Assembly: GCA_024195265.1 (NCBI GenBank)
Contig: JAJLRJ010000013.1
Span: 4,231,075-4,295,074 of the forward strand
Source of the DNA: Dendrophyllia cribrosa
Lineage: Eukaryota > Cnidaria > Anthozoa > Scleractinia > Dendrophylliidae
DNA: 64,000 nt
Reading direction: 5' to 3'
Below the pieces are notes generated by a model, which did no database searches, was not told the origin of the DNA, and saw nothing but the letters and a program-made list of their open reading frames with translations. The position numbers and the translations under genes are program-made. Below are positions 26,543-46,619 of this stretch, piece by piece (position 1 is the stretch's first letter; each line of letters starts with the position of its first letter).

Positions 26543-26686
26543 TCAGGTAGGGAATAAAAAAAGATAAAATTTATTCCCCAGAAAACTTTTTTGGAATAAA
26601 AAAATTTTCCCCAGAAAACTTTATGGGAATAAAAAATTTATCCCCAGAAAACTTGGGAATAAAATCAATTTCATTTTGGAAAACTC

Positions 26687-26767
26687 AAATCAAAACTTTT
26701 ATTGGAAAGAAAAAATAAAAATTCATTTGTTTTTTTATTTCTTTCTTTCCAATAAAAGTTTTGATTT
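26687..26767. repeat. Perfect 26-bp-arm hairpin in left TIR
   Basis: Arms 26687-26712 and 26742-26767 are exact reverse complements (core CAAAACTTTTATTGGAAAG). The loop is AT-rich and partly self-complementary. It is mirrored at 43212-43292. Confidence 0.85.
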
Positions 26768-27001
26768 GGAAAAGATTTTTCTCCAAATTAATTTCATTTA
26801 GGGGAAGATCTCCTTCAAAATAAATTTCATTTTTTTTTTTTCTAACTAAAATCTATTTTTTCATGAAGTTTTATGTTGAAGATAGGCTTATCTCTCTTTT
26901 TCCCCCTCTGTTTATTTCCTATAATTTAGTCCACTCTTTTCAGGAAATAAATATATAAAATCATATTTTTGTTTTTTATTTCGTTTTTATATTTAACTAA
27001 A

Positions 27002-27583
27002 ATGGCGAAACAAACAGACAAACATTTTACAATTTCAGATGGAAAAAAAACCAAAACATTCACCTCTATCAATTCTGCTGCTAAAGAATTTAACATTTCA
27101 AATTGTGCAATTACAAATGCTCTGAAAAAAGGAAACACATCTATCACCAGAAGATCGGATAAGAAAAAATTCTTTCTCGGAGAACCAAAACCAAAATCAA
27201 AACAAACAGATACAGAATTTTCTTCACTTCCAATGGATGAGGAATGGTTTGATAAATTCAAGATAATAGTTCCAAACATGGATGAGTTTGGTAAAGGGAT
27301 TGTTAATATATTATTTATGGATGAGGACATCGCATTTGATTGGAAAAAAAGAGAAATTTTATATAATGAGGAAACTGTTTCATTTTTCAAGATTATCTCC
27401 GTTATCTGTAAAGTGGCATTTCCGATTAACAGAGATTATTGTTTGGAAGAACAGAATAAAAAATTATCTGTTGGGGAAAAAAATGCAATTGACTTGAAAC
27501 GATTGAATTTCATTTCCAAAATGAGGAAAAATGAAAGAACCTTTCAAGTGGATTTATTCAATAAAATCAAGAAATATAAATGA
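27002..27583 (+). CDS. TIR-encoded HTH-like protein, left copy
   Basis: A 193-residue protein of unknown function, encoded wholly within the TIR and so present twice. Residues about 20-45 (SINSAAKEFNISNCAITNAL) look like a helix-turn-helix of the NUMOD1/MerR sort, followed by a basic word RRSDKKKFFLGE. The rest has no motif I recognise. The 160-residue protein encoded at 31468 has the same N-terminal layout (EAS..TGIPNSTIWR, then RKSDKKVFF), so the two are paralogues. I chose the ATG at 27002, 11 codons inside the longest frame, because it sits in the CTAAAATGG context used by most genes of the element. Binding to element DNA is inference. Confidence 0.7.
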   Translation: MAKQTDKHFTISDGKKTKTFTSINSAAKEFNISNCAITNALKKGNTSITRRSDKKKFFLGEPKPKSKQTDTEFSSLPMDEEWFDKFKIIVPNMDEFGKGIVNILFMDEDIAFDWKKREILYNEETVSFFKIISVICKVAFPINRDYCLEEQNKKLSVGEKNAIDLKRLNFISKMRKNERTFQVDLFNKIKKYK

Positions 27584-27634
27584 AATATTTCACAGCTGAA
27601 AATCAATGACTAATAGCTAAAGTTTTCCAGAAAA

Positions 27635-27660
27635 AAAACTTTTTCTCCTGAAAAAGTTTT
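27635..27660. terminator. Hairpin between convergent genes (TIR/polB)
   Basis: An 11-bp perfect stem (27635-27645 with 27650-27660, loop TCCT) lies between the stops of the TIR gene and polB, and the sequence continues in Ts on one strand. Mirrored in the right TIR at 42319-42344. Similar hairpins mark the other two convergent junctions of the element. Confidence 0.55.
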
Positions 27661-27690
27661 TTATTTCAAATTTGCTTCATCAACCACTTT

Positions 27691-30600: not shown

Positions 30601-31431
30601 ATTTTTCTCCACTGGATTTTTCCATCTTCCAATGCACCACTTGAAGCACTCATCATCATTTTCATTTTTCATGTTTGTTAAAGCTTTTTTTGCAGCAAGC
30701 CAATCAGGAAGAGGAATGAATTTTCCAACAGTTATTTCATCCAGATGAATTTCCAATCTTTCAACTCGTAAGAATCTCCAGTTGCTTCTTCCCCTTTGGA
30801 AATTCCGCATGTTTTCCAACATTCTCTCATTCATTTCTCTCAGCAATTTTTCCAAGTCAGTTCCCTCAAAAACTTCTTCAACCAGGGAAGAAAAGAAGGC
30901 ATCATTTTCAATGGTTGTTCCCTGCGCTAAATCATGAGAAATCATTCTGCAAACCAAAACCATTTTCACTTTGAACCCAAAATGTTTCTTCAGAATTTCA
31001 ATCATATTTCCTTTCACATTCTTCAAGAATCCTTCTGCGGAATATCCTTCTTTTCCATTTATAATAAAAGTCGATCCACCCAACCCCGGTTTTTCTTCAA
31101 TATCAAACTCAGGTCTCTTCAGCATTTCTCCAATCTTCGTGTTCAACTTCAAAAGTTTTTCCCGGGCTTTTTCCTTCAAATTCCAATCAACTCTTTTTTT
31201 TATCTTTCCAAACCAGGAATTCATTGAATCAATTGATGACTCAATAATGTTTGGCACTCTTTCTGGAAGAACTTTTTGTTCAGTTGATTTCACTTCAGGA
31301 AAAGATGTTTTCTTGATGATTTTTCTCTGTGGGTTTTGCAACTCTTTTTCCAAATCAGCTTTTTTCATCCTGGAGAATCCAATCATTCCTTCCGAACGTG
31401 CACGATCTTTCAATTCTTTTAAAGTTGTCAT
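27691..31431 (-). CDS. polB: Protein-primed family B DNA polymerase (Polinton pPolB)
   Basis: Replicates the element by protein priming. The 1246 residues show a SAP-like N-terminus (about 1-31) and a C2H2 finger (about 377-400). The 3'-5' exonuclease motifs are ADFE (about 432), HNLDGYDSH (about 582) and YLKTDVFLL (about 740). The polymerase motifs are A DANSLYP (about 840), B KLASNAVYGK (about 985) and C YSDTDS (about 1077). Between the first two exonuclease motifs lies a CxxC...DHCHLTG.FRGAAH..CN block (about 533-565) that resembles the zinc/HNH region of phage T4 endonuclease VII. Frame and catalytic residues are intact. It is divergent from the 31468 gene with 36 bp between starts (TTCAAAATG). 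The last seven codons lie within the TIR. Confidence 0.95.
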   Translation of the reverse strand: MTTLKELKDRARSEGMIGFSRMKKADLEKELQNPQRKIIKKTSFPEVKSTEQKVLPERVPNIIESSIDSMNSWFGKIKKRVDWNLKEKAREKLLKLNTKIGEMLKRPEFDIEEKPGLGGSTFIINGKEGYSAEGFLKNVKGNMIEILKKHFGFKVKMVLVCRMISHDLAQGTTIENDAFFSSLVEEVFEGTDLEKLLREMNERMLENMRNFQRGRSNWRFLRVERLEIHLDEITVGKFIPLPDWLAAKKALTNMKNENDDECFKWCIGRWKNPVEKNPQRITPLLRKQCEEFNWEGISFPISWRDIDRFERQNNISVNVLGIVEGKQIVTLRKTREKKENHVILFKLKSGENEHFTLVKNLNRLWFGEDSKNKNQRHVCDGCLNSFNSKKTLDVHQEFCMDDGVKAVLPPEKSIMKFKKVQCATTVPFVIYADFESILEKTEKKIGEKTEQIQHHVPCSFCFLPVSQVGVDFSPVFFRGKEGDDVGREFLVKLVDQVKWILNDVRRPMLRKNWKRILWKKGEKEAFQKTDICWLCRKKIEEKKVADHCHLTGEFRGAAHEYCNLQAKVPDFTPVFIHNLDGYDSHLFIKNMGNEFGEIDAIPNNDEKYISFSLKIVWGTFEDEEGKKHDLKHEIRFVDSLKFMNSSLANLVGNLGKNDLHCLKRFFPNDDEVDLLSRKGVFPYEFMDSFEKFNCELPGKDAFFSQLSGEGISDEDFAHAENVWRKFGMSNMGEYHDLYLKTDVFLLTDVVENFRKVLLENYLLDPAWFLTAPSFFWDAMLKMTGVELELICEGDVEMFRFFERQIRGGVSTVFHRFSQANNKFMEDFDPSQPSKFIVYLDANSLYPTAMVQPLPVGGFEWLSEGVLKKWEKIVDEKGYGCVLEVDLEYPKENHDFHNDFPLAPELLEVGGFKKLIPNLMDKEKMVLDGRSLRLFLSLGMKLKKIWRGIGFRNEAFMKPFIEWNTKLRTAAKNDFEKDLFKLASNAVYGKTMENVRNRIDMKLVNDRKKKANLVKKINFKHAAKFGDKVAAVHMRKTKVVLNKPIFVGAAILDLSKIHMFKFHYGYVKKKWENVKVLYSDTDSLILEIETDDFFADTAGDVEKWFDTSGYPKDHFAVKNGFPVGKNKKILGMFKDEAGGKIIREFAGLRAKCYSIKMDEGKGIKKAKGTKKNVVRNKISHEDFMRVLHGEKFPPMKNVSLRSHLHEIFTEQILKVALSAYDDKRVVMDDGVNTLAIGHWRLSSPPKG

Positions 31432-31467
31432 TTTGAATGAAAAATAAAAAAAATGTTTTCATTTAAA

Positions 31468-31950
31468 ATGAAGTTTTCAATCCAAGAAGAAGGAAAAGAA
31501 AAGCAGATTTTTTTCACATTCAAAGAAGCATCAGAAAAAACTGGTATTCCAAATTCCACCATTTGGAGGTTCATCAAAAACAATTCAGAAAACAAAAAGT
31601 TCACCAGAAAATCAGACAAAAAAGTTTTCTTCATTCAGGAAGAAATAACAGATAAACCTTTTCTCCAAGTTGATGGAGAAGATATTTTTGATTGTGATGA
31701 AATAGAAAAGTTTGGAATTTCAAACACAGTTTTTTTCAATCAAATTCTCAGGAAGAAAAACCATTTCCTTGATTCAGAGGAGATCTCTCACCACATCACA
31801 TGGAAATCTCCTGAATTTGATTTCCTTATTGATAGATTGAGGGAAAATCAAAGGGATGCAAAAATCATTCAAAAGGCTAAAAAGAAATCATGGCCAAAAT
31901 CAACCATAAATCACGCTTTAGTTTTTGTAAATGATAAAGACCATATTTAA
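31468..31950 (+). CDS. HTH-like protein, paralogue of the TIR gene
   Basis: 160 residues, function unknown. The N-terminal FTFKEASEKTGIPNSTIWRF segment resembles a NUMOD1-type DNA-binding module and is followed by FTRKSDKKVFF, the same layout as the TIR-encoded protein. The C-terminus is basic. The start at 31468 (TTTAAAATGA) is preferred to the in-frame ATG at 31453 because it fits the context of the other genes. It is divergent from polB, so the two share a short AT-rich promoter region. Confidence 0.7.
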   Translation: MKFSIQEEGKEKQIFFTFKEASEKTGIPNSTIWRFIKNNSENKKFTRKSDKKVFFIQEEITDKPFLQVDGEDIFDCDEIEKFGISNTVFFNQILRKKNHFLDSEEISHHITWKSPEFDFLIDRLRENQRDAKIIQKAKKKSWPKSTINHALVFVNDKDHI

Positions 31951-32012
31951 AAAGTTTGAATTTTCATTTCCAAGAAATGAAAAAAAAATTTTTTTTTTTT
32001 TCTCCAAAGAAA

Positions 32013-32267
32013 ATGAATGTCGAAGATTTTGAAAGAATGATGGAAGATAGTGATTATATTATAGAATTGATGAATCTCGGATTTTTGGATGATTTGGCGA
32101 TAGAAATTATTCTAGAAATCCGAGAAAGAGGTGAACACCCAGAGGACTTAATTGATATGTTTATTGAATATGATTTTAATGGAGATGATTTTGAATACGA
32201 TGAGTTCTCAGCATCAGAAATTGTTGAACTGTTTATGGAACCCTCATCACTTGAGAATGTGATATGA
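32013..32267 (+). CDS. Small acidic protein, unknown
   Basis: 84 residues, rich in D and E, with no cysteine and no recognised domain. The start at 32013 (AAGAAAATGA) is chosen over upstream ATGs that would add a low-complexity lysine/phenylalanine stretch. It follows the HTH-like gene after 62 bp and ends 2 bp short of the opposing gene's stop. Another acidic protein lies at the far end of the element (41922-42203). Confidence 0.5.
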   Translation: MNVEDFERMMEDSDYIIELMNLGFLDDLAIEIILEIRERGEHPEDLIDMFIEYDFNGDDFEYDEFSASEIVELFMEPSSLENVI

Positions 32268-32277
32268 GATCACTCAA
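32256..32277. terminator. Hairpin at the convergent stops, 32.27 kb
   Basis: GTGAT (32259-32263) pairs with ATCAC (32269-32273), with a weaker outer TTGA/TCAA pair (32251-32254, 32274-32277). Both opposing stop codons lie within it. Imperfect, so less certain than the other two. Confidence 0.35.
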
Positions 32278-32794
32278 ACAACAAATCATATTTCTTCTCA
32301 AACTTCTCCAAATCCAATCCTAAATCAATCACAATTCCATCAACCACCTCCATTGCTGGAAGGAATTCATTTCGAATGAATTTTCCACTTCTCAAAGCAA
32401 AACGTAAATAAGTCAATGTTTTCTCGTAAGTTGTGAACGCGAACTTTGTCATTTCAATTTTGTTTCCATATTTCTTCATTTCATTCCCTGTTTTGACAAC
32501 CAATCCTGCACCGGAAATCACTCCCAAAACGATGGGATTCATTGTCACTCCCCCCGCAATTGCGCCAATCGCAACAAGAGCGGAAGATGTTAAATTCACA
32601 AACAAATTCATTCGCTTGAAATGTTTGTGAGCTCTTTTCAAACACCAAAATCTTTTGTGATAGAATCGGAAGAGTTGCTTGATCTCTTCCAGTTCTTCTT
32701 TCTTAATGTTGGGGTCAATGTGGTTGAAATTGAAGATGCTCTGCCTGCGCTGATCACGGCTTGGTTGTAAAGATTTAATTCTTTTGATGCTCAT
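32270..32794 (-). CDS. Conserved Polinton protein with glycine-rich hydrophobic segment
   Basis: 174 residues. A basic N-terminal 60 residues precedes a hydrophobic Gly/Ala-rich stretch at about 63-100 (AIGAIAGGVTMNPIVLG, GAGLVVK) and a mixed C-terminus. The hydrophobic part could insert in a membrane or pack as a helical hairpin. I recall similar proteins from cnidarian Polintons but no function. It is the last gene of a tight minus-strand set ATPase, fibre-like, this gene; its ATG follows the fibre stop by 3 bases. Confidence 0.7.
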   Translation of the reverse strand: MSIKRIKSLQPSRDQRRQSIFNFNHIDPNIKKEELEEIKQLFRFYHKRFWCLKRAHKHFKRMNLFVNLTSSALVAIGAIAGGVTMNPIVLGVISGAGLVVKTGNEMKKYGNKIEMTKFAFTTYEKTLTYLRFALRSGKFIRNEFLPAMEVVDGIVIDLGLDLEKFEKKYDLLFE

Positions 32795-32797
32795 TTT

Positions 32798-34609
32798 TTA
32801 GACTTCAAACAATAAAGAAACCCGGTAACTAAAAGCTGTGGAAGGGTTTGTGGTGAAGGGTCTGACCTGAATAGAATCCAATGCCTTCAATGGGAGATTA
32901 ATCTGTATGGTTTGTGTTCTACCGTCTTTGGGTGATGTGAAGGTTCTTTTTACAATTTCAACGCTGATGGGTGGATAACCTGGGTAGCCTCGATGCGTAG
33001 CATAAGTAACAATTGACTTTAAGGTACAATCAATGGGAATCAACAAATCATCATCATCCCCATTAAATTTGATATATAATGCTGGCTGACCCAGATGCCC
33101 ACTCAACAAAAAAGATGATTTATTTCCGATTAGTTGATGACCATTCATATCTAAATCAGTTTGCATAGTCATCGTCTGATTTTCATAAACGAAAGGAGCA
33201 TCATAAACAGAACTTGGTACATCTGATTGAGAACCTTTTACACCATAAATAATCAGATTTGCTGGGCCTTGAGAAGCTGATGATGCTGTTCCTTGCCATT
33301 TCAAATCCAGATAGATAAATTCCGGTGGAGAAATCTGCCATTTATGCATGTGAATGATTGATCGAGAATAGTTGGAAAACTTCTTCGTTGATTGTTGATT
33401 GATATTCAAGCTGGTCGAAACAACGTCAACGCTCACACCCGTCATGGAAGCGGGGAAGAATTCAATGCAAATCGTATATTCCCCTTCTGGAAGCTTCAGC
33501 ATATTGAAACCAAGTCGCCCAGAGTATTCATTAAAAACATCTTTTGTTATTTTCAAATTGAAAGCTTTTTTATTAATTTGATGGGGTGAACTTGTAAAAT
33601 CAGATAAACCAGTCACTGTCATATTATGTTCAGCTCTGGATTCATCCACATCCTCCATCAAATACCGGAATTCATCCTTCAAGTGGGAGGTTGAAGATAT
33701 ATGCGATTCATTGACATATTTTTTAAGGTCAGCTTCTGTTTTAATCAGTTCCTCTGCCAGAGCTACTGTCTTGTTATTTAGCTGTGTGTCAACATATTGT
33801 TTTGATGTTGCTTCATTGGATGTTTTTGGATCGGGAAGACCAATGATTTTCTCCGATCCCATATCAAGTTGTCCAGTCATTGTTCCACCTGATAAAGAAA
33901 GTTTATTAGCTGCCAGCCCGGAGACTGCCGTGTCCACATATTTTTTGTTGACTGCTTGATCGATTGCTGTTGGATCTTTCACGTTGAAGATGAAATTCGT
34001 TCCCATATCCAAGCTTGTTTCCATTGGAAATGTTTCTTTTCTGCTGACAAAAACATTCTTTGCATCGTCATAGGAGATCAGATTGTTATAGTTTGCGGAA
34101 AGATCCTCATAAGTCTGCTGTTTTGATTGTGTGACATGAAACAGTCCTTTCAAATCGATGTCTTTCGTCACTTCATGCGTGTGAGCAGGTGCAGCTGGGT
34201 GATATTTTTTCAGCGTTACCATATTCACAGCAGAAAGATCATTGGATTCATCTGTATCCAGATTTGTGATCAGTTTCCGATCCATGTCAATCTCTCCAGG
34301 AAGAATCAGTTTCTTTCCCCTGAGGTCCAAATCTCCAGTCATATGGGAGGATCCATCAACCTGTAAAGAATCTGCTCTCAGTTGAATCAGTTTGGTTTCC
34401 ACACTTCTGTCTAGCGTGTCAACTTGATGTTTTGTGACTGCATCACCATTTGTTGTTCCTTCAGCGACATTGACTAGTTTTCTGTTTGACATATCATAAT
34501 CCCCTGTGGGTGTCAGTTTAAAACCAACTCCTGGCAATCCATCTCTTCCATCTCGACCCCCTCGGGAAGTGCTTGTTGTTTCAGAAAGCAATCCATTTGA
34601 ATAGCTCAT
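32798..34609 (-). CDS. Fibre-like protein with phage tail-fibre repeats
   Basis: 603 residues. After a short collagen-like stretch (GRDGRDGLPG, residues about 18-27) come four or five repeats of the type D(L)DM..KLI.N..DP...DAV.KKYVDT at about 37-66, 107-136, 199-228, 248-275 and a shorter one near 476. Such repeats are typical of trimeric phage tail fibres. The remaining C-terminal half is beta-rich and unlike known families to my eye, as receptor-binding heads often are. Inference: a trimeric virion spike or attachment protein. The start at 34609 is taken because the stop of the ATPase gene and this ATG form TAAAATG; the longer frame would overlap the ATPase by about 150 bases. Confidence 0.75.
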   Translation of the reverse strand: MSYSNGLLSETTSTSRGGRDGRDGLPGVGFKLTPTGDYDMSNRKLVNVAEGTTNGDAVTKHQVDTLDRSVETKLIQLRADSLQVDGSSHMTGDLDLRGKKLILPGEIDMDRKLITNLDTDESNDLSAVNMVTLKKYHPAAPAHTHEVTKDIDLKGLFHVTQSKQQTYEDLSANYNNLISYDDAKNVFVSRKETFPMETSLDMGTNFIFNVKDPTAIDQAVNKKYVDTAVSGLAANKLSLSGGTMTGQLDMGSEKIIGLPDPKTSNEATSKQYVDTQLNNKTVALAEELIKTEADLKKYVNESHISSTSHLKDEFRYLMEDVDESRAEHNMTVTGLSDFTSSPHQINKKAFNLKITKDVFNEYSGRLGFNMLKLPEGEYTICIEFFPASMTGVSVDVVSTSLNINQQSTKKFSNYSRSIIHMHKWQISPPEFIYLDLKWQGTASSASQGPANLIIYGVKGSQSDVPSSVYDAPFVYENQTMTMQTDLDMNGHQLIGNKSSFLLSGHLGQPALYIKFNGDDDDLLIPIDCTLKSIVTYATHRGYPGYPPISVEIVKRTFTSPKDGRTQTIQINLPLKALDSIQVRPFTTNPSTAFSYRVSLLFEV

Positions 34610-34610
34610 T

Positions 34611-35243
34611 TTAAAGTCTTTCATCAAAGTTTTTAGCAATGAATTTCCTCGGCTTATCCACATAGAGGAAAGAGAATGGATCATGCGTTGCTTTCTTATA
34701 ATCTTCTTTGCTGACTTGTGTCTCCCTACAAAGTAGGGAAACTTCATTGTTGCTGGGGAATTCAAAGATGCAAAAATGAGAACAATTCAGGCGGATATCT
34801 TTTGGTGTTTGGAAATAACTTTGTGAAAGATAAATCATAGAACAATTCTTATGCCTACCTTGGATAAAATAATCAATTAGGGGTTTTTGATTCTTTTCGC
34901 AAACAAAATCATCGAAAACAACCAGTTTTTGATTCTCCCCTGACAATTCAGAAACTGGGATGATTTCATTCGGTGATGCCTCCACAACATCATACCCAGC
35001 TTCTTTGTTGATTGGGTGAAATGTTTTCAGAAGATGTTGATATTTAGCTTGGTTAAGATTTTTCGCATAGAGATAAATTTTATCATAATACAACAATCTC
35101 AAAATCATATCCAGGAGAACATTTGTTTTCCCTGATCCTGAAGGGCCGCAGATCAACATTCTGAAAGCTTGATCAGGCATGAAAGGATGGAGCTGTCGAA
35201 AATTTGTAATTGGATCCTGACAATCATAATTTGGAATCTTCAT
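34611..35243 (-). CDS. A32-like FtsK/HerA packaging ATPase
   Basis: Genome-packaging ATPase of Polintons. In 210 residues it shows Walker A GPSGSGKT (33-40), Walker B LVVFDD (107-112) and a downstream SQSYFQTPKDIRLN sensor-like region. The length is normal for the family. It opens the minus-strand late-type set, divergent from the 35339 gene across a 12-bp tandem repeat. Start context ATAAAATGA. Confidence 0.95.
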   Translation of the reverse strand: MKIPNYDCQDPITNFRQLHPFMPDQAFRMLICGPSGSGKTNVLLDMILRLLYYDKIYLYAKNLNQAKYQHLLKTFHPINKEAGYDVVEASPNEIIPVSELSGENQKLVVFDDFVCEKNQKPLIDYFIQGRHKNCSMIYLSQSYFQTPKDIRLNCSHFCIFEFPSNNEVSLLCRETQVSKEDYKKATHDPFSFLYVDKPRKFIAKNFDERL

Positions 35244-35250
35244 TTTATTA

Positions 35251-35322
35251 TATTCAACATCATATTCAACATCATATTCAACATCATATTCAACATCATA
35301 TTCAACATCATATTCAACATCA
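35251..35322. repeat. 12-bp x 6 tandem repeat between divergent genes
   Basis: Six exact units of TATTCAACATCA fill the gap between the divergent starts at 35243 (-) and 35339 (+). If read through on the + strand they would code for repeated HHIQ, which I take as non-coding. They could be binding sites for a regulator or simply a slippage product. Confidence 0.9.
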
Positions 35323-35338
35323 TATTTTTGGATTTAAA

Positions 35339-36373
35339 ATGAGTTTATTGAAATGGAATGAAATGGCTAAAAGCAAATCTGCTTTGGGTCAAAAAATCAA
35401 CTTTATTCATGATGTCATCACCCAGAAAAAGTTGGGTAAAGAAACAAGTCAAATCGGATTTGAAAAAATGTTCAAACCCATCACATCGAAACTGGATGAT
35501 GTTATTGCATCGAATTTAAGACCACTTCCCCGGAAAAAGAAAGTTGGAAAAGCCAAACCCACGTACATTGATTATTATCCTGAAGTCGATCCATTTGAAG
35601 AGAAGGAAGTTGAAGGTTTGATTGATGATGATGAGATTGTATCACCACAAACAGCTAAGCAAATTCCAATAAGACCACCAACATACGAAGAAGTACTGGA
35701 AGAGTTAGAAGGTGAATCTCCTGTATATAAATCAACCGTTCCTGATTATGAAGTGGAAGAAGAGGAAGAGGAAGAGGAAGAGGAAGAGGAAGAGGAAGAG
35801 GAACTTAAAGGATGGGAAGAAGCTCAAGAAGATATTATTGAAGAAGAAGATAAAATTAATGAAATGCTAGATAAGATGGGTTTATCAAATTATAGCAAAA
35901 CAGATAAAGTCTTAGCTCAACCAAATGTTCCAGTAGAAAAGAAAAAAAATTTAATTGCAAACAGCATTATAATGCCAGCTCATAATATAAGAGCACAACT
36001 GAACAACCGTAACAGTTATATAAACAAAAAATTCAATGAAGGTAGAATAACTAAAAATCAAAGGGATATAGAATGGCAGGCTATAAAAGAAAAAAGAAAA
36101 GTACTGAATGACTACATGAAGTATTATAAAAACAAACTCAAGTCATTTGAAGGCTCTGGAGCCCGAAAACGATACGGACGTGGCATCTCATTTTTCAACG
36201 ATCCAAAAGATCTTCTCCAGAAACTTGAAGTCATTATCGGCTCTATCCTTGCTGGAAACACTAACATCGACGTGAGAAATGAAGGAGTTGCAATTCTCGA
36301 TATTCTCCTGAAAGAGTCAGTGATTAACAGGCCTCAGCATGAAAAGCTGTACAAAACCTATTTCAAAACATAA
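35339..36373 (+). CDS. Conserved Polinton protein, acidic middle
   Basis: 344 residues. A lysine-rich N-terminus is followed by PxYEEVLEE-like words, a run of about 18 glutamates near residue 145-160, then a basic region and a C-terminal block (RYGRGISFFNDPKDLL, HEKLYKTYF) that I recall as well conserved in cnidarian Polintons. Function unknown; position before penton and capsid genes suggests a virion or assembly role. The start at 35339 (TTTAAAATGA) excludes the upstream frame through the tandem repeat. It ends TAA, followed after one base by the next ATG. Confidence 0.75.
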   Translation: MSLLKWNEMAKSKSALGQKINFIHDVITQKKLGKETSQIGFEKMFKPITSKLDDVIASNLRPLPRKKKVGKAKPTYIDYYPEVDPFEEKEVEGLIDDDEIVSPQTAKQIPIRPPTYEEVLEELEGESPVYKSTVPDYEVEEEEEEEEEEEEEEEELKGWEEAQEDIIEEEDKINEMLDKMGLSNYSKTDKVLAQPNVPVEKKKNLIANSIIMPAHNIRAQLNNRNSYINKKFNEGRITKNQRDIEWQAIKEKRKVLNDYMKYYKNKLKSFEGSGARKRYGRGISFFNDPKDLLQKLEVIIGSILAGNTNIDVRNEGVAILDILLKESVINRPQHEKLYKTYFKT

Positions 36374-36374
36374 A

Positions 36375-37133
36375 ATGGAAAGAGAAATCGTCCTGTCATC
36401 TTACGCTGTTAAGAACAGACAAAACAAACCTGCAGATTTCATAACAAAATTTAATCGTCCAATTATTCTTGATTTGAATGAACAATATGTTGTTGGGTTG
36501 AAACGAATCATCAATATGAGTTTTACATGGTATAACATCAATCCGCAATATGAAAATCAACTGATTAGATTTTCCTCCGATGGTGGGAAAACATTTTCCG
36601 ATATTGCTTTTCCTGCTGGAGTTTGGGAGTATTCTGGGATAAATGATTTCATTCGGAAAGCAACAGTGGTGAAAGAATCTGGGAAAAAAGATGTTTTTCC
36701 AATCAATCTTGCTTTCAGCAATGAAACTTTCAGAGTGACAGTTTCACTGGCTGAAAATTATCAACTGGATTTCACCCAATCGAATTTCCATGATCTTGTG
36801 GGGTTTGATAAAAAGATTCTGAAGGAGAAAGTTAATGTTGGCCCTAAAGTTCCAAATCTCAGTCAAGATACTGATATGTTGAACATTCATTGTGATTTGA
36901 CAAATGACTCACTTGTGGATGGGGAAGAGACTGATATCATCTATTCCTTTTCCACATCTGTTCTGCAGGCATCATATAGTTTTGAGCGTGAACCCATAAA
37001 AATAGCATTCTGCCCTGTGAATAAAAACACGATCAGCTCAATTCGGATGTATATCACAGACGGGAAAAGAAGAATTGTTAACCTGAATGGGGCAGACACA
37101 GCATTCTCGTTGATATTAAAAAAAAGACTATAA
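36375..37133 (+). CDS. Penton (minor capsid) protein
   Basis: 252 residues, beginning MEREIVLSSYAVKN. Length, the beta-rich character and the place just upstream of the major capsid gene fit the single jelly-roll penton protein of Polintons. The start at 36375 forms ATAAAATGG with the previous stop; the longer in-frame start at 36339 would overlap the upstream gene. No jelly-roll motif can be proved by eye, so the call leans on context and on recall of the family's N-terminus. Confidence 0.8.
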   Translation: MEREIVLSSYAVKNRQNKPADFITKFNRPIILDLNEQYVVGLKRIINMSFTWYNINPQYENQLIRFSSDGGKTFSDIAFPAGVWEYSGINDFIRKATVVKESGKKDVFPINLAFSNETFRVTVSLAENYQLDFTQSNFHDLVGFDKKILKEKVNVGPKVPNLSQDTDMLNIHCDLTNDSLVDGEETDIIYSFSTSVLQASYSFEREPIKIAFCPVNKNTISSIRMYITDGKRRIVNLNGADTAFSLILKKRL

Positions 37134-37134
37134 A

Positions 37135-37569
37135 ATGAAAGCATATGAATTTTCTCGTTATTACCACCCCAAACTGGGGAAGTTTGTTTATAAGCATAAA
37201 GGAACAGGAATCATTTTTGATTCCATCTTCAAACCACTGAAAAAGATGGTAGGACCAGCCATGAAAGGAATTCTCAAGAAAGTTGCGAAACCATTTGCGA
37301 AAAAAGCTTTGGACGCAGGAATTTCTCACGCTGGAGAAAAAGTGGGTAAAATGGCAGTTGAAAAATCAGGTGATTTGATTATGAAAAAACTGGGAAACAT
37401 GAAGATTGGAAAACCATCTGTGAAACGAGGAAAAAAACCACAATCACACCCTTCAATCAAGGTCGCTTCGCTCCCTGCTTCACTCCCAACGAAACAACCA
37501 CAGAGAGCGAAGCCGATAGAAAGTGCAAATGATATCTTGAATAGACTTATCAGTGGTCAAGGAATTTAA
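37135..37569 (+). CDS. Small basic protein of the capsid cluster
   Basis: 144 residues, strongly basic, with an amphipathic lysine-rich helix-forming centre (about 40-100: KKVAKPFAKKAL, GEKVGKMAVEKSGD) and a C-terminal NDILNRLI word. It lies between penton and major capsid genes and could be a DNA-condensing or membrane-active minor capsid protein comparable in role to adenovirus pVI or pVII; that comparison is inference from charge and position only. The start forms ATAAAATGA with the previous stop. Confidence 0.7.
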   Translation: MKAYEFSRYYHPKLGKFVYKHKGTGIIFDSIFKPLKKMVGPAMKGILKKVAKPFAKKALDAGISHAGEKVGKMAVEKSGDLIMKKLGNMKIGKPSVKRGKKPQSHPSIKVASLPASLPTKQPQRAKPIESANDILNRLISGQGI

Positions 37570-37583
37570 AATAATCTATTAAA

Positions 37584-38870
37584 ATGGCTTTTCGATCGAA
37601 TGAATATCTCCAAAGAAATGAATTAGTAAGATTCCAGTTGGATGATGTACTCAGAGCCCCAGCAAATGGGCAAGCACAAACAAAAAATGGTTATAAATTC
37701 ACCATCAATGACAGATCAGCGTTCTATGACTGGCATAACGCTTATTTTGAAGTGCAATTTCAACTCCAGAAATTAGCAAATGGTGCTGGATATGCTGCTG
37801 CTGATAGGATAACAGTGATAAATGGCTCACATTCCCTGATAAAACACATGACCATCAGATCTGCAGGGAAGATTGTTTACGAACCTGACAATCTGCATAA
37901 AGTTACTTTTGTTAAAAATCTATTGGAATACTCAGATGACTTCAGCAGATCAGTTGCAAAAAACAGTTTCTGGTATTTGGATACGAATGCAACAACAGCT
38001 GCGAATAACATAGGATTTGAAGCGAGACGACTACAAACTCAAGCAGTTAACGATGATGGAACTGGAGGGGCAAAAGATGTTAATTGCATTATCCCCTTGA
38101 ATCGTTTCTCCTTTTTCGAGGAACTGGAAGGCAGGATGTTGGTCCCAATGCAGTTGCAATTCGAAATTAATCTTCAACAGGATGGTGAATTGATTCATAA
38201 GGCTGCTGCTGCTGCTGCCGGAAGAGTTGTCATCAACAGATTTTTGCTTTGGGTGCCAAGACTGTCTCCCAAAGATTCTCTTTATGATAAATTTATCAGT
38301 TCATTCCTGAAAGAAACACAATGGAAGTATCTGAGGGAGACATATGATCAATCAGCTCCCGCAACATCATCAGGATTCTTCCAGATTTCAGCGAGCATTG
38401 ATAATGTAAAGCATATTTTTGTCTGGCTGAAAAGATCCGCTCCACCCCATGATATCCCTGCAGAAGACTCTCCATATCTCTTTGACACTTTCAAGCTGAA
38501 TGCAGCAAATGCAAACTCATCCTTGTCAACTTGCAGATTGGAGTATGGAAATGGAGTGTTTTATCCTGAAACTGACTATGACACAGAATCAAAAGTCAGA
38601 ATCTTCAATGATGTTATGGCTTATGCAATGAGGAAAAATGACTTCAACACTGGGACTCAGTTGAATTTGGCTAACTTTCAATCACTTTATGGTCTCATTT
38701 ATTTCAATTTGTCTTACCAAGCTGAAAAACCAACAAGAGATCCCAAGCAGTTGATATTTCGATATACGCTGAATGCCAATGCAGCTGCAGCCTTCAATGT
38801 GCATGCAGTGGTTCTTTATGAGGAAACAGCTAAGATTAATAAAGTTGGTAATGAGTTGGTCATTGCCTAA
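37584..38870 (+). CDS. Major capsid protein (double jelly roll)
   Basis: 428 residues beginning MAFRSNEYLQRNEL. Length, position and conserved words such as RITVINGSHSLIKHM, FSFFEELEGRMLVPMQ and GKIVYEP fit the double jelly-roll major capsid protein of Polintons, which forms the hexons of an icosahedral shell. An alanine run near residue 205-212 (HKAAAAAAG) probably sits in a loop. Frame intact. Start context TTAAAATGG, 14 bp after the previous stop. Confidence 0.92.
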   Translation: MAFRSNEYLQRNELVRFQLDDVLRAPANGQAQTKNGYKFTINDRSAFYDWHNAYFEVQFQLQKLANGAGYAAADRITVINGSHSLIKHMTIRSAGKIVYEPDNLHKVTFVKNLLEYSDDFSRSVAKNSFWYLDTNATTAANNIGFEARRLQTQAVNDDGTGGAKDVNCIIPLNRFSFFEELEGRMLVPMQLQFEINLQQDGELIHKAAAAAAGRVVINRFLLWVPRLSPKDSLYDKFISSFLKETQWKYLRETYDQSAPATSSGFFQISASIDNVKHIFVWLKRSAPPHDIPAEDSPYLFDTFKLNAANANSSLSTCRLEYGNGVFYPETDYDTESKVRIFNDVMAYAMRKNDFNTGTQLNLANFQSLYGLIYFNLSYQAEKPTRDPKQLIFRYTLNANAAAAFNVHAVVLYEETAKINKVGNELVIA

Positions 38871-38902
38871 AGCGAAGTAAAAAACATATGTTATCATTAA
38901 AA

Positions 38903-39703
38903 ATGACAACATATCACCCATATAAAATAAATTTGTCTAAAGGACAAAAAGAAAAGCTTGGAAGAGCATTCAGAACAAACACTCCAGTCACCCTGAGATT
39001 GGGTAGTAATCAAACAAGTGGAAATGATGAACTGATGCTGACAACTAATCAAATTAAAAGAATCACAAAAGCAAAATCTCTGGGAAAAGGAGTTGAGATA
39101 AAGATATCAAAAACACAAATTAGAAAAGTAATGAAACAAGGTGGAAGTCTATTTTCTGCTATTATTCCTTTAGCTAAAACATTGATACCCACCCTGGGTA
39201 AAACACTTGGGTTGTCAGCACTGGCTGGTTTAGCGAGTGAAGGAGCAAGTCAAGTCGTCAAAGCAATAAGTGGAAAAGGTGGTGGTCAGGTGGGTGGATT
39301 TCTCATCCCCCAAAATAAAATTCAGAAACTGATTGACAATAAACATTTATTGACAAATAAACAGAAACAAGACATTTTGGTTGCCCTGCAATCAGGAGGA
39401 CAGTTGGTGATGAAACCATCCGTAAAACAGTCTGGTGGATTGTTAGGAAGTGTGTTGGCATCCATTGGAATCCCATTAGCACTTGACATGGTAAAGAATT
39501 TGTTTGGGAAAGGTGCTCCTAGAGTTGGACGACCAAAAGGAAAAGGAGCTCCAAGATTGGGAGCGTATCCTCCCCCATTTATTGGTAACTGGAGACGAAA
39601 CCCTGTTGGGATGGGTAAAAAAAAATCAAAAAAGGGCAAAGGACTTCTGCTGGGGACGAACAGCCCATTCAACAACATCCCAATTCTCGGGGAAATATTG
39701 TGA
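38903..39703 (+). CDS. Conserved Polinton minor virion protein, Gly-rich
   Basis: 266 residues, basic, with GG words at several places (KQGGS, GKGGGQVGG, LQSGGQ, KQSGGLLG) and a conserved C-terminal LLLGTNSPFNNIPILG. Cysteine proteases of the adenovirus type cut next to GG, so these may be maturation sites; this is inference. A hydrophobic segment spans about 85-115. The start at 38903 (TTAAAAATGA) is five codons inside the longest frame. Its last four bases overlap the protease frame, and an A9 run at 39617-39625 lies in phase for a -1 shift into that frame. Confidence 0.75.
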   Translation: MTTYHPYKINLSKGQKEKLGRAFRTNTPVTLRLGSNQTSGNDELMLTTNQIKRITKAKSLGKGVEIKISKTQIRKVMKQGGSLFSAIIPLAKTLIPTLGKTLGLSALAGLASEGASQVVKAISGKGGGQVGGFLIPQNKIQKLIDNKHLLTNKQKQDILVALQSGGQLVMKPSVKQSGGLLGSVLASIGIPLALDMVKNLFGKGAPRVGRPKGKGAPRLGAYPPPFIGNWRRNPVGMGKKKSKKGKGLLLGTNSPFNNIPILGEIL

Positions 39704-40134
39704 GGCCTAAATTTGTAATTAAACCGCTGTCAAATATTGATCTGTTGAAGTGGATTGAATATCTGAGGATTCCCAATTTCAAAGGGATCTTTGCGAGAGA
39801 TCAATTCATGCCACAAAAACACACTCCCTGCATCATCAATCTTGATTCACTTGAAAATGCAGGAACTCATTGGGTTTGTTGCGCTCCGGGGAAAAAATTC
39901 ACGTGGTATTTTGACTCTTTTGGAATGGGATTTCCCAAAGAATTCAAAAGTTCCAAACCAGTGATTTGGAACAGCAGTCAGTATCAAAACATAAACAGTG
40001 TTCTTTGCGGGTATTATTGCCTTTATTTCCTCCATCAATGGTCGCAGGGGAAAGATTTCTATGATATTCTCCAACCTCTCAGTTTGACTGATACAATGCA
40101 AAATGAAAGATTCATAAAAGAATATTTCGATTGA
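39700..40134 (+). CDS. Adenovirus/Ulp1-type cysteine protease
   Basis: Capsid maturation protease of Polintons. Counting from 39700, the catalytic residues are His57 (GTHWVC), Asp72 (WYFDSFG), Gln96 (SSQYQ) and Cys103 (VLCGYYC), all present in the right order. Length is normal. The odd point is the start: there is no ATG before residue 37. The frame opens after a stop at 39616-39618 and the first conserved codon is preceded by GTG at 39700, overlapping the TGA of the upstream gene. Expression could be by -1 frameshifting from that gene, by reinitiation at a non-AUG codon, or the start may have been lost. Confidence 0.9.
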   Translation: MRPKFVIKPLSNIDLLKWIEYLRIPNFKGIFARDQFMPQKHTPCIINLDSLENAGTHWVCCAPGKKFTWYFDSFGMGFPKEFKSSKPVIWNSSQYQNINSVLCGYYCLYFLHQWSQGKDFYDILQPLSLTDTMQNERFIKEYFD

Positions 40135-40136
40135 AA

Positions 40137-40295
40137 ATGAAGTCATATTGTGTGAAGGAGAAAAAACAAACTGAATGTGTTGAGCCATCTGGAACCATGA
40201 CCGCAAAAAATGGAAGAAAGATGTGGTTTTGCCATTGCGCTTCCTGTGGAATCAAAAAGACAAGATTTGTGAAGGCAAAGCCCTCGGGAAACTAA
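40137..40295 (+). CDS. Zn-ribbon-like N-terminal domain, ends at a frameshift signal
   Basis: 52 codons from an ATG in TTGAAAATGA context, three bases after the protease stop. Cysteines at 5, 14, 32, 34 and 37 (YCVKEKKQTEC; FCHCASCG) suggest a zinc ribbon like those found at the start of this protein family in other cnidarian Polintons, as I remember them. The frame stops at TAA 40293-40295. The bases just before it, GGGAAAC (40286-40292), are a slippery heptamer in the right phase. The continuation in the -1 frame is the PLA2-like gene. The frame is too short to be a typical gene on its own. Confidence 0.75.
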   Translation: MKSYCVKEKKQTECVEPSGTMTAKNGRKMWFCHCASCGIKKTRFVKAKPSGN

Positions 40296-40951
40296 GTCTG
40301 CCCTCACAAGGTGGGGGCTTTGGTGAATTAGCATTGACTGGCGTTGCTCATGCTCTTCCCTGGCTCGGGAAAAAAACAGTTGAAATGGGGAGATATGGAG
40401 CTAGTGAATTGTTGCGAAATAAGAACACTCAGAAAAAAGCATTAGATTTTGCTTTAGATAAGATGAAACCATTTCTTGCCAAAACCTCTTCCGATATGCT
40501 GAATCAACTATCCACAACGATTAGACCAAACATAAAATATAAGACAGATCGAGCTGATTTGGATGGAAGAGGATTGGATATTCATAACTTGATTGGGAAA
40601 CTACCAAAGCCAAAGAAAGGTTTCACTCTTCCCGGACATAACTTCACTGGCCCGTATAACCCTTTGGAAAAACAAGTCAGATTTGATGATACTGGAAAGA
40701 TTCTTGAAATCTGGCAACAACCCACAGGAAAAACAGACGCAGTTGCTATGCAGCATGATGTGGATTATTCAGTTTGCGCAAAACAAACAGATCCACGCAA
40801 ATGTAAAAATAAAGCAGACAGAAAAATGGTTGCCGCTTTGGATTCCATTCCCTGGAAAGAAAGACAGTGGGGTCATGCTTTGGCGAGAAATACCATTGAT
40901 GTAAAACAAAAACTTGGTCTCGGCGTTCCAAAAAACGGGAAAAGATTTTGA
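40223..40951 (+). CDS. PLA2-like (parvovirus VP1-type) protein, entered by -1 shift
   Basis: Coordinates follow the open frame from its first near-cognate codon (GTG); by the frameshift model translation enters at 40292. Counted from 40223, residues 138-185 hold GHNFTGPYNPL (a Ca-loop-like motif) and the catalytic-type dyad in AVAMQHDVDYSVC (His178-Asp179), the hallmarks of the phospholipase A2 domain in parvovirus VP1. There it breaches the endosome membrane; a similar entry role here is inference. No ATG precedes the domain's conserved N-terminal part. A second slippery site, AAAAAAC (40930-40936), lies near its 3' end and leads into the integrase frame. Confidence 0.85.
   Translation: MVLPLRFLWNQKDKICEGKALGKLSLPSQGGGFGELALTGVAHALPWLGKKTVEMGRYGASELLRNKNTQKKALDFALDKMKPFLAKTSSDMLNQLSTTIRPNIKYKTDRADLDGRGLDIHNLIGKLPKPKKGFTLPGHNFTGPYNPLEKQVRFDDTGKILEIWQQPTGKTDAVAMQHDVDYSVCAKQTDPRKCKNKADRKMVAALDSIPWKERQWGHALARNTIDVKQKLGLGVPKNGKRF
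40286..40318 (+). promoter_or_regulatory. Putative -1 ribosomal frameshift signal (Zn ribbon to PLA2-like)
   Basis: Slippery heptamer G GGA AAC at 40286-40292, read in phase by the upstream frame and followed at once by UAA. After a 7-nt spacer (40293-40299) comes a hairpin with an 8-bp stem (GCCCTCAC 40300-40307 with GTGGGGGC 40311-40318, one G-U pair, loop AAG). The downstream gene is in the -1 frame. Spacer and stem match known -1 signals. The alternative is a chance 1-nt indel at a G/A run. Confidence 0.65.
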
Positions 40952-40973
40952 GTGAAGGCTGGACTCAAAATCT
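40930..40973 (+). promoter_or_regulatory. Putative -1 ribosomal frameshift signal (PLA2-like to integrase)
   Basis: Slippery heptamer A AAA AAC at 40930-40936, in phase with the PLA2-like frame, one of the most efficient eukaryotic slippery sequences (used by mouse mammary tumour virus gag-pro). A 6-nt spacer (40937-40942) is followed by a perfect 11-bp stem, AGATTTTGAGT (40943-40953) with ACTCAAAATCT (40963-40973), loop of 9 nt. The integrase frame is -1 and is open from 40900, so the overlap is only 52 nt and this is the only heptamer of this kind I see in it. Confidence 0.75.
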
Positions 40974-41892
40974 AGCAAATGAACTTCACCAGCCAATCAG
41001 GAGAAGATTTCCAAAGAGAAGAGTTATTGCATATGGTGTTGACAAAATTTGGGCGGCTGATCTGGTTGAGATGGGGAAATTTTCAAAGTGGAATAAAGGA
41101 ATAAGATATCTCCTGATGGTGATCGATGTTTTCTCAAAGTTCGGTTGGATTCGCCCTCTGAAAGATAAGCGAGGACAAACAGTAGCCGATGCTTTCCAAT
41201 CCATATTCAGGGAGCGAAAACCAAAGATGCTTTGGACTGACAAAGGAAGTGAATTTTTCAATGGAACTATGAAGGATCTCCTGAATAAGAATGGGATAAA
41301 ATTGTATACCACAGAGAACGAAGAAAAGTCATCTGTGGTTGAACGTTGGAATAGGACTATGAAGGAGAAACTCTTCCGGATGTTTTCTGCTAACAATAAT
41401 ACAGTGTTTTTTGATAAACTAGATGAGTTAGTAGATCAATATAATCACCATTTTCATTCGAGCATTCGGATGACCCCAACGCAGGCTAGCGAACGGAAAA
41501 ATGAGAAAAAGGTTTTCGCTAATCTTTTTGGAGATATGATTTATGCAAAACACAACCCATCAAAATTCAAGATCGGTGACAGGGTTAGAATATCAAAATA
41601 CAAACGAAAGATATTCGATAAAGGTTTCACCCCGAACTGGACAGAGGAGATATTTGTTATCGATGAAGTTTTAAACACAAATCCTGTAACGTATAGGTTA
41701 GTCGATCTGTTGGGAGAAAAAATAACTGGATCATTTTATGAAGCAGAACTCCAAAGGACAACACAAAGCGTATTTCGCATTGAAAATGTTATTCACCTCG
41801 ATCAGAAGAAAAAGGAAGCCTTGGTTAAATGGAAAGGATATCCTGATAAATTCAATTCCTGGGTTCCACTGAGTGATATGGAAAATCTCTGA
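40948..41892 (+). CDS. Retroviral-type integrase with chromodomain
   Basis: Integrates the element. Counting from 40948, the catalytic triad is Asp38 (WAADL), Asp98 (WTDKGSEFFN) and Glu132 (SSVVERWN), a D,D(33)E spacing. A chromodomain fills the last 40 residues (ALVKWKGYP, FNSWVP), which in other integrases guides target choice to modified chromatin. The N-terminal HHCC zinc region is absent or very short. The first codon of the listed frame is TTG and the first in-frame ATG comes after Asp38, so a normal start would lose the active site. The gene overlaps the PLA2-like stop and is best explained as a -1 frameshift extension. Confidence 0.93.
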   Translation: MSEGWTQNLANELHQPIRRRFPKRRVIAYGVDKIWAADLVEMGKFSKWNKGIRYLLMVIDVFSKFGWIRPLKDKRGQTVADAFQSIFRERKPKMLWTDKGSEFFNGTMKDLLNKNGIKLYTTENEEKSSVVERWNRTMKEKLFRMFSANNNTVFFDKLDELVDQYNHHFHSSIRMTPTQASERKNEKKVFANLFGDMIYAKHNPSKFKIGDRVRISKYKRKIFDKGFTPNWTEEIFVIDEVLNTNPVTYRLVDLLGEKITGSFYEAELQRTTQSVFRIENVIHLDQKKKEALVKWKGYPDKFNSWVPLSDMENL

Positions 41893-41897
41893 GACAG

Positions 41898-41922
41898 AAT
41901 ATGAATGTTTCACATTCATATT
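41898..41922. terminator. Hairpin between convergent integrase and acidic gene
   Basis: Perfect 11-bp stem AATATGAATGT / ACATTCATATT with a 3-nt loop, directly after the integrase stop and reaching the stop of the opposing gene. Confidence 0.5.
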
Positions 41923-42203
41923 TATGAAATAACACCTCTTTCTTTCAATTCCCGGTGGATTTTCCAGAGGAGATCACTTTGTTTTTGGAGTTCATTTTTA
42001 TGAATCTTGTATTCCTCTTGGAGATTGATAAATGATTCAAAGAGGAGTTCTATCATGTCTTCCTCTTCTTCATTTTGCTCTGCTTCTTCCATCTCTGAAT
42101 CAGAGACAATAAATTCCTCATCAGATGTTGTTGGGGTTTCATCTTCACTCATTGATTCATCCTCTGAGCAGGTGAGGTCGCTTCGCTCGCTTTCATCATC
42201 CAT
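41922..42203 (-). CDS. Acidic coiled-coil protein, unknown
   Basis: 93 residues: the first 55 are dominated by D, E and S with SEDE/SDEE words that look like CK2 sites, the last 35 (FINLQEEYKIHKNELQK) could form a coiled coil. Start context CTCAAAATGG fits the element's other genes. It converges on the integrase and lies against the right TIR. Confidence 0.55.
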   Translation of the reverse strand: MDDESERSDLTCSEDESMSEDETPTTSDEEFIVSDSEMEEAEQNEEEEDMIELLFESFINLQEEYKIHKNELQKQSDLLWKIHRELKERGVIS

Positions 42204-42395
42204 TTTGAGTTACAAGATTAAAATGTTTAATAGATATCACTCCCTTGTGGAAAAATGAATTTTGTCTTCTTCTCCTCCAAAAGGATAAAAAGTGGTTGAT
42301 GAAGCAAATTTGAAATAAAAAACTTTTTCAGGAGAAAAAGTTTTTTTTCTGGAAAACTTTAGCTATTAGTCATTGATTTTCAGCTGTGAAATATT

Positions 42396-42977
42396 TCATT
42401 TATATTTCTTGATTTTATTGAATAAATCCACTTGAAAGGTTCTTTCATTTTTCCTCATTTTGGAAATGAAATTCAATCGTTTCAAGTCAATTGCATTTTT
42501 TTCCCCAACAGATAATTTTTTATTCTGTTCTTCCAAACAATAATCTCTGTTAATCGGAAATGCCACTTTACAGATAACGGAGATAATCTTGAAAAATGAA
42601 ACAGTTTCCTCATTATATAAAATTTCTCTTTTTTTCCAATCAAATGCGATGTCCTCATCCATAAATAATATATTAACAATCCCTTTACCAAACTCATCCA
42701 TGTTTGGAACTATTATCTTGAATTTATCAAACCATTCCTCATCCATTGGAAGTGAAGAAAATTCTGTATCTGTTTGTTTTGATTTTGGTTTTGGTTCTCC
42801 GAGAAAGAATTTTTTCTTATCCGATCTTCTGGTGATAGATGTGTTTCCTTTTTTCAGAGCATTTGTAATTGCACAATTTGAAATGTTAAATTCTTTAGCA
42901 GCAGAATTGATAGAGGTGAATGTTTTGGTTTTTTTTCCATCTGAAATTGTAAAATGTTTGTCTGTTTGTTTCGCCAT
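42396..42977 (-). CDS. TIR-encoded HTH-like protein, right copy
   Basis: Identical at protein level to the left-TIR copy at 27002-27583. Having two copies doubles the dose and places one copy near each end of the element. Confidence 0.7.
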   Translation of the reverse strand: MAKQTDKHFTISDGKKTKTFTSINSAAKEFNISNCAITNALKKGNTSITRRSDKKKFFLGEPKPKSKQTDTEFSSLPMDEEWFDKFKIIVPNMDEFGKGIVNILFMDEDIAFDWKKREILYNEETVSFFKIISVICKVAFPINRDYCLEEQNKKLSVGEKNAIDLKRLNFISKMRKNERTFQVDLFNKIKKYK

Positions 42978-43436
42978 TTTAGTTAAATATAAAAACGAAA
43001 TAAAAAACAAAAATATGATTTTATATATTTATTTCCTGAAAAGAGTGGACTAAATTATAGGAAATAAACAGAGGGGGAAAAAGAGAGATAAGCCTATCTT
43101 CAACATAAAACTTCATGAAAAAATAGATTTTAGTTAGAAAAAAAAAAAATGAAATTTATTTTGAAGGAGATCTTCCCCTAAATGAAATTAATTTGGAGAA
43201 AAATCTTTTCCAAATCAAAACTTTTATTGGAAAGAAAGAAATAAAAAAACAAATGAATTTTTATTTTTTCTTTCCAATAAAAGTTTTGATTTGAGTTTTC
43301 CAAAATGAAATTGATTTTATTCCCAAGTTTTCTGGGGATAAATTTTTTATTCCCATAAAGTTTTCTGGGGAAAATTTTTTTATTCCAAAAAAGTTTTCTG
43401 GGGAATAAATTTTATCTTTCTTTATTCCCTACCTGA

Positions 43437-43477
43437 AGTAGATAGGAAAGAAGGGTTCTGGCAAACTCTTCAACCGC
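43437..43477. repeat. Subterminal inverted copy of the Polinton terminus (right)
   Basis: Mirror of 26502-26542; pairs with the outermost 43830-43870. Confidence 0.9.
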
Positions 43478-43870
43478 TGTTTTTCAAACAAAATTCATTT
43501 CTGATGAATTTTGTGGGATTTTAGGGGAACTGATGGATTTGTTTGATTTTATGAGAATTTTTCATTAATGAATGTATCTGTTTGATTTTATGAGAATTTT
43601 TTGGTGAACAAGATGGATTTTGTTGATTTTTAAATAATTGTACGATGATTTTTTGCAGAGAATTTATAAAATGCTGAAAATTTAGCAGCTTTTTTTTGAT
43701 GATTTTGTTAATTTTTATGAGTCATGATATGTAAATTTGGAACAATTTTCATGCGATCGCATGCAAATTCAGAGTTAGTGATGAAAGTAGGAGAAAAGTG
43801 AAAAGAATTAGAAATTGTGTTAAAAAGGGGCGGTTGAAGAGTGTGCCAGAACCCTTCTTTCCTATCTACT

Positions 43871-46552: not shown

Positions 46553-46619
46553 TTTAGTTCCATGTAATAGTCCGAAGGCACGATTATCGTATAAACCAAG
46601 ACATTAGTTATGCATACGC

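Follow-up and report, generated by a model that had tools for sequence, protein, structure and literature searches.

Retroviral gag-pro-pol genes, such as those of HTLV-1 and MMTV, are expressed through a double -1 frameshift. A well-known signal of the same general kind is that of infectious bronchitis virus, an H-type pseudoknot with an 11-bp stem 1, a 6-bp stem 2 and a spacer of about 6 nt. For adintoviruses, possible -1 frameshifting has been proposed with KnotInFrame for Penton and for Hexon-Adenain, according to the accessible part of a preprint (PMC11071296). In the accessible text on vertebrate Mavericks, integrase is listed as a gene of its own and the word frameshift denotes a mutation (PMC8097293); integrase frameshifting is not described in the accessible portions of that paper or of PMC10120064, PMC11071308, PMC12567637 and PMC3671162. 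A first-pass annotation of the locus studied here had claimed that integrase synthesis by -1 frameshifting is undescribed for Mavericks/Polintons. That claim agrees with our literature search, which found no description of an integrase made in this way, the founding adintovirus paper (Starrett 2021) and subscription journals being places that could mention it.

The window, meaning the whole 64,000-nt stretch of Dendrophyllia cribrosa DNA that was analysed, contains a recently inserted, intact-looking Polinton, with the terminal repeats, 6-bp duplication, polymerase, integrase and ATPase of a Maverick/Polinton:

26109..43870, unstranded: Polinton/Maverick, intact-looking, 17,762 bp, delimited by inverted repeats and target duplication, with Pfam matches inside
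26109..27711, plus strand: left terminal inverted repeat, 1603 nt, matching the right repeat at 100% identity
42268..43870, minus strand: right terminal inverted repeat, 1603 nt, 100% complementary to the left repeat

The target duplication ATCAAA stands at both ends of the element (26103-26108 and 43871-43876), and the complete identity of the two long repeats indicates that the insertion is recent. Pfam matches within it comprise a family B polymerase (PF03175, E 6.6e-23), an rve integrase (PF00665, E 1e-11) accompanied by a chromodomain, a Pox_A32 packaging ATPase (PF04665, E 1.4e-15) and an adenovirus-type protease that falls below the curated cut-off (PF00770, E 0.0066). A jelly-roll capsid protein was sought in ORF 37575-38870, which gave no Pfam match at E 0.01, and no reverse transcriptase was found among the 16 ORF frames scanned in the element. 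The inverted repeats are long enough to hold a gene, and ORF 42396-43028 within the right one has a sub-threshold NUMOD1 match. Outside the Polinton, the minus strand carries two closely similar open frames of 555 codons (44936-46603 and 49829-51496), apparently a duplication. Scans of viral contigs with the integrase and with two degenerate patterns returned no match.

Two -1 frameshifts, one after the other, are the most likely route to the integrase of this element, whose junctions very probably form a programmed -1 ribosomal frameshift cassette that works in two steps. The relevant features are as follows:

40137..40295, plus strand: DUF5679 0-frame ORF of 52 aa (PF18930, E 3.1e-8), ending GGA AAC TAA
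40184..40951, plus strand: PLA2-like frame (PF08398, E 1.1e-8), -1 relative to the zinc-ribbon frame, with its stop UGA at 40949-40951
40286..40292, plus strand: predicted frameshift site 1, the slippery heptamer G GGA AAC in zinc-ribbon phase, with UAA 40293-40295 directly after it
40300..40318, plus strand: candidate stimulatory hairpin of site 1, 8 bp, GCCCUCAC/GUGGGGGC (40300-40307/40311-40318), spacer 7 nt
40900..41892, plus strand: integrase frame, -1 relative to PLA2, with rve integrase core and C-terminal chromodomain
40930..40936, plus strand: predicted frameshift site 2, the slippery heptamer A AAA AAC in PLA2 phase (codons CCA AAA AAC)
40943..40973, plus strand: predicted pseudoknot stem 1, 11 bp, a perfect inverted repeat (40943-40953/40963-40973) after a 6-nt spacer (GGGAAA)
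40957..40994, plus strand: predicted pseudoknot stem 2, 6 bp, GGCUGG 40957-40962 pairing with CCAGCC 40989-40994

The ATG of the DUF5679 ORF follows the protease stop by 2 nt, and the Cys pattern of its product suggests a zinc ribbon. The PLA2 domain itself occupies approximately 40616-40906, and the predicted coding part of its frame begins at site 1. Just upstream of the domain this frame encodes LDGRG, which resembles the adenovirus protease site [MIL]xGxG; other copies carry LDGSG or LSGRG at this position. The first-pass annotation had placed an in-phase A AAA AAC, a 6-nt spacer and a perfect 11-bp hairpin at the PLA2-integrase junction, with the integrase in the -1 frame, a 52-nt overlap of the two frames and no ATG ahead of the first catalytic Asp, and every one of these particulars is correct for the window. 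Two of its readings need enlarging: the hairpin proposed as the stimulatory structure is present and is also stem 1 of an H-type pseudoknot, while the proposed fusion of PLA2 to integrase, supported in the copies described below, is preceded by a further junction, PLA2 being itself the -1 frame of an upstream ORF.

Briefly, ribosomes would begin at the zinc-ribbon AUG, and the UAA that follows G GGA AAC would release most of them. Some, held up by the hairpin roadblock 7 nt downstream, would slip back one base at site 1 into the PLA2-like frame, whose UGA, past A AAA AAC, would in turn release most; some of those that reach site 2 would slip again there, with the H-type pseudoknot 6 nt downstream as roadblock, and continue in the integrase-chromodomain frame. 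The expected products are the zinc ribbon, the zinc ribbon-PLA2 fusion and the zinc ribbon-PLA2-integrase fusion, in descending order of abundance. What the sequences show is the arrangement, its conservation within this genome and the paired changes described below; from these we infer slippage and its efficiencies. By analogy, the fusion may further keep integrase scarce and tie it to a virion-type PLA2-like protein, with packaging as in retroviral Gag-Pro-Pol a possible consequence.

The pseudoknot at site 2 has a 6-nt spacer, S1 of 11 bp, L1 of 3 nt, S2 of 6 bp, L2 of 0 and L3 of 15 nt, and was equalled in none of 20,000 dinucleotide shuffles, 58 of which produced any pseudoknot by the same rules. 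Among the 1001 heptamers of the form XXXYYYZ on both strands of the window, nine are followed by any pseudoknot and only site 2 by one this strong. As expected of programmed -1 signals, both sites have an XXXYYYZ heptamer in 0-frame phase where two ORFs in -1 relation overlap, and a stable stem-loop or pseudoknot about 5-9 nt further on; the spacer of family D, described below, is 9-10 nt. The hairpin alone is less striking, since 18 of 200 shuffles of the 74-nt segment fold as well (z -1.42); as the best-placed stem in 120 nt it was matched by 4 of 2000 shuffles. A search with the Rfam frameshift families gave no match in 40000-41300, with two sub-threshold hits. Codon bias as the sole cause of the heptamer was considered and set aside on the codon use of these genes, in which the share of AAA among Lys codons is 0.66, that of AAC among Asn codons 0.50 and that of CCA among Pro codons 0.48.

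At site 1, 23 of 2000 shuffles gave a hairpin as good as that in the window. When the 40 nt after the heptamer were ranked among 2067 windows over 36000-42200, site 1 came within the lowest 0.53% and site 2 within the lowest 0.97%; the 78 nt after site 1, taken as a whole, fold no better than shuffles (z 0.22).

An integrase search of the host genome (627 Mb, 22 contigs) yielded 131 scored places among 2976 candidates, and all 131 junctions, every one from this single genome, were used for the comparison of site 2. To be counted as keeping the arrangement, a copy needed an in-phase slippery heptamer, a PLA2 frame open for 150 codons or more ahead of it, the PLA2-frame stop at an unchanged position and an integrase frame open through the heptamer; 120 of the 131 copies qualify. 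The eleven exceptions have stops, indels, the heptamer AAUAAAC or rearranged PLA2 genes. AAAAAAC is the heptamer in 119 copies, UUUAAAC in 10, AAUAAAC in one and AAAAAAA in one. Full pairing, with G-U counted, is found for stem 1 in 130 and for stem 2 in 129 of the 131, including seven copies in which U replaces C in stem 2 and a G-U pair is retained. Constraint on the protein is not enough to account for the heptamer pattern, since UUUAAAC changes the encoded residues. In a tree of the copies built with the junction columns left out the UUUAAAC copies are scattered, for which reason neither one origin nor several is claimed. Synonymous diversity is 0.048 over the pseudoknot; elsewhere in the sampled integrase it is 0.140, and in PLA2 0.223. 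The dip ranks third of 91 blocks, which is moderately favourable and not the main evidence.

The upstream junction recurs in the same copies. GGGAAAC stands directly before the zinc-ribbon stop in 123 of 131, preceded by a number of codons that varies between copies, and in 114 of the 123 it has the phase relative to integrase seen in the window. The complete two-site chain, defined as a zinc-ribbon ORF with ATG, site 1, an open PLA2 frame, site 2 and an integrase frame that stays open as far as it was sampled, is present in 105 of the 131.

Two further features of individual copies may be recorded here. In L077, L083 and L111 the linker between PLA2 and integrase carries a short GC-rich insert, similar in all three, that lies no more than about 90 nt ahead of integrase index 0. 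L062, L063 and L064 (G000:C1, 37.490-37.510 Mb) are identical from -660 to +300 of the junction and are spaced 9,806-9,808 bp apart; they probably represent tandem repeats of a Polinton-derived unit of 9.8 kb.

More distant relatives were sought with the PLA2 family, which gave 150 scored places in the host genome out of 971 candidates; from these, 28 were picked by hand for variety and not at random. Eight of the loci were covered over about 1 kb (four with integrase) and twenty more junctions over 191-241 nt. The other four of the eight (L132-L135) have PLA2-like genes with no integrase within the stretch covered. The 24 PLA2-integrase loci (L136-L159) include some nearly identical to each other and one, L159, from the window's family; compared over about 175 nt, the families are 63-73% identical in nucleotides, the exceptions being C and E (85%) and B and E (76%). 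A AAA AAC in PLA2 phase with integrase in the -1 frame is found in 22 of the 24. The first-pass annotation had looked to conservation of heptamer, phase and stem amid varying sequence, and to compensatory changes in the stem. With the 131 copies and these 24 junctions, all from the same genome, the former is borne out, the upstream sequence being the part that varies. The latter is borne out between families; within family A, that of the window, stem 1 is almost invariant, so that the support for pairing comes from comparison between families of one genome.

Family D retains a pseudoknot of its own, with S1 of 7-8 bp, a spacer of 9-10, L1 of 5, S2 of 7 bp (UGAUUGG/CCAAUCA) and L3 of 22-23. Its stem 2 is rebuilt from other bases, with the 3' arm a few nucleotides further down, and cannot be compared position by position with that of family A; in stem 1, one pair differs between A and D (U-A to G-C). 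Stem 1 of family D is weak, shuffles being as good in 98 of 2000 cases for L151 and 7 of 2000 for L152. Families B and C have instead a GC-rich stem of 12-14 bp (with one G-U in most), 7 nt downstream and with a loop of 52-62 nt, the stem of L142 having 9 bp and a loop of 68; for L140, L145 and L153 none of 2000 shuffles was as good. One pair differs between the B and C stems (A-U to G-C), and L153 has U-A in place of U-G. These paired changes were found by hand comparison between families of one genome, with no phylogenetic test.

Site 1 was followed through 22 loci of the divergent families (L136-L139 and L160-L177). An in-phase slippery heptamer, GGGAAAC, UUUAAAA or UUUAAAC, is present in 17 of them and, L166 apart, is followed directly by a stop. 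Among these 17, the upstream ORF is damaged or missing in L138, L162 and L171, and L137 has a PLA2-frame stop just after site 1. Of the other five, L175 is out of register there and four are in-frame copies, listed below. One class of hairpin, GCCAGUCA/UGGCUGGC, becomes GCCAGUCG/CGGCUGGC in L166 and GCCAGCCG/CGGCUGGC in L168, an in-frame copy, which amounts to the paired changes A-U to G-C in both loci and U-G to C-G in L168. The family B hairpin (L163) was matched by 87 of 2000 shuffles. Family B has, in place of the zinc ribbon, a homologue of the window ORF 38855-39703 as 0-frame partner, with 62 of 137 aligned columns identical between that ORF and the partner in L136 (E 2e-24).

Several other ways of joining these frames have to be weighed against the frameshift cassette. 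That integrase and PLA2 each start independently, at AUG or non-AUG codons in their own frames, is very unlikely, although it can draw on more than one observation. Near-cognate codons occur in the window. An in-frame integrase ATG ahead of the catalytic Asp, which the first-pass annotation had set against frameshifting, is absent from 97 of the 131 copies and present in 34; in 29 of these 34 it falls within the PLA2 ORF, ahead of the heptamer and preceded by other AUGs, four belong to in-frame fusions and one, in L101, lies at +36, with a further integrase-frame ATG at -54 in L106. The window has 13 such AUGs, counting all frames, at -620 to -41. For PLA2, an ATG between site 1 and the core is found in 94 of 129 family-A copies, including the window (40385), while in 26 of the 129 the frame is open and holds no ATG between the preceding stop and the PLA2 core; in three more the only PLA2 ATGs lie upstream of the site 1 heptamer. 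A PLA2 start at ATG 40385 was considered in its own right and dropped in view of the 26 open-frame copies that have no ATG ahead of the core.

Splicing of the RNA, which would join the frames with no need for frameshifting, we likewise regard as highly improbable. In the aligned copies there are 10 GT/AG pairs that would bring the PLA2 and integrase frames together and whose two sides each occur in at least 90% of copies. All five donors, however, lie inside the PLA2 domain (-314 to -161), part of which would be lost, and the acceptors are mostly purine-rich; with donors restricted to -150 to -41, 122 copies have no such pair. Nor does splicing account for heptamers that change to other slippery heptamers, or for the stems.

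Transcriptional slippage on the A-run, giving mixed mRNAs with no slippage by the ribosome, is extremely unlikely. The run of six or seven A at site 2 would suit it, as would the copies in which the length of the run differs and yields in-frame fusions, but UUUAAAC (10 copies at site 2, and found also at site 1) and GGGAAAC at site 1 contain no long run, so homopolymer slippage does not explain them, and stems at near-fixed spacing would not be expected. Decay into pseudogenes or assembly error can be given almost no weight, for despite stops and indels in some copies (L018, L038, L066, L111 and L175) the window insertion is recent, with identical 1603-nt repeats, and 105 of 131 copies share the same two -1 breaks in the same position, as 22 of 24 further loci share the site 2 break.

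Successive -1 frameshifting thus remains the preferred reading, alongside copies that link the frames without slippage, as the in-frame fusions indicate. PLA2 and integrase are fused in frame at site 2 in 4 of the 131 copies (L050, L077, L083 and L108, all among the eleven exceptions above) and 2 of the 24 further loci (L138 and L155), and zinc ribbon and PLA2 at site 1 in 4 of 22 (L167, L168, L172 and L174). Several of these fusions go back to a slight difference in length in the heptamer or next to it, and they could be real variants or homopolymer errors.

Frameshifting at both sites would explain the missing start codon of the integrase frame and, in many copies, of the PLA2 frame, and suggests a testable route for integrase into Polinton virions. 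Proteins expressed in this manner may also be truncated or missed by ORF callers.

Among the known systems, vertebrate Mavericks share with the window Polinton the element class and the integrase (PMC8097293, accessible text). Adintoviruses are related adenovirus-like/Polinton DNA viruses, and the proposal made for them differs in that it concerns other genes and alternative C-termini; the accessible part of that preprint does not name integrase or PLA2 in this connection and gives no copy-level conservation (PMC11071296). Bacterial elements of the IS1 and IS3 families are mobile DNA elements that make a DDE recombinase by -1 frameshifting; they differ from the Polinton in being bacterial and not virus-like, with two ORFs of one transposase. 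A paper on one such element, IS6110, is PMC5896891.

The Polinton pseudoknot has the same S1 and S2 lengths and the same spacer as that of infectious bronchitis virus, and some Polinton copies use UUUAAAC, as that virus does; the viral signal serves the replicase of an RNA virus and has a different sequence, and the Polinton signal matches no Rfam frameshift family. The likeness to retroviral gag-pro-pol is close: two successive -1 sites, heptamers of the same kinds, downstream structure, and an integrase predicted to appear only as the last part of a fusion, so that a low-abundance enzyme is tied to an upstream protein. To our knowledge, programmed frameshifting has not been reported before for a Polinton integrase, and the case here would be a double one, as in retroviruses. 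The Polinton differs in being a DNA element with a family B polymerase and no reverse transcriptase in the 16 ORF frames scanned, and in its order of zinc ribbon, PLA2 and integrase, and homology of the signals is not claimed. It is quite possible, if somewhat short of probable, that an independent Gag-Pro-Pol-like system operates in this eukaryotic DNA virus-like transposon, in which tandem -1 shifts would set the stoichiometry (zinc ribbon or core protein far above the PLA2 fusion, and this far above the integrase fusion) and integrase would enter virions as the C-terminal passenger of a PLA2-bearing virion protein, perhaps to be freed by the adenain-like protease. The homology of the family B 0-frame partner to ORF 38855-39703, whose product we would guess to be a virion core protein, fits such virion delivery. 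If gag-pol-like logic did arise independently in a DNA element, the Polinton and the retroviruses would offer a clear case of convergent gene-expression design.
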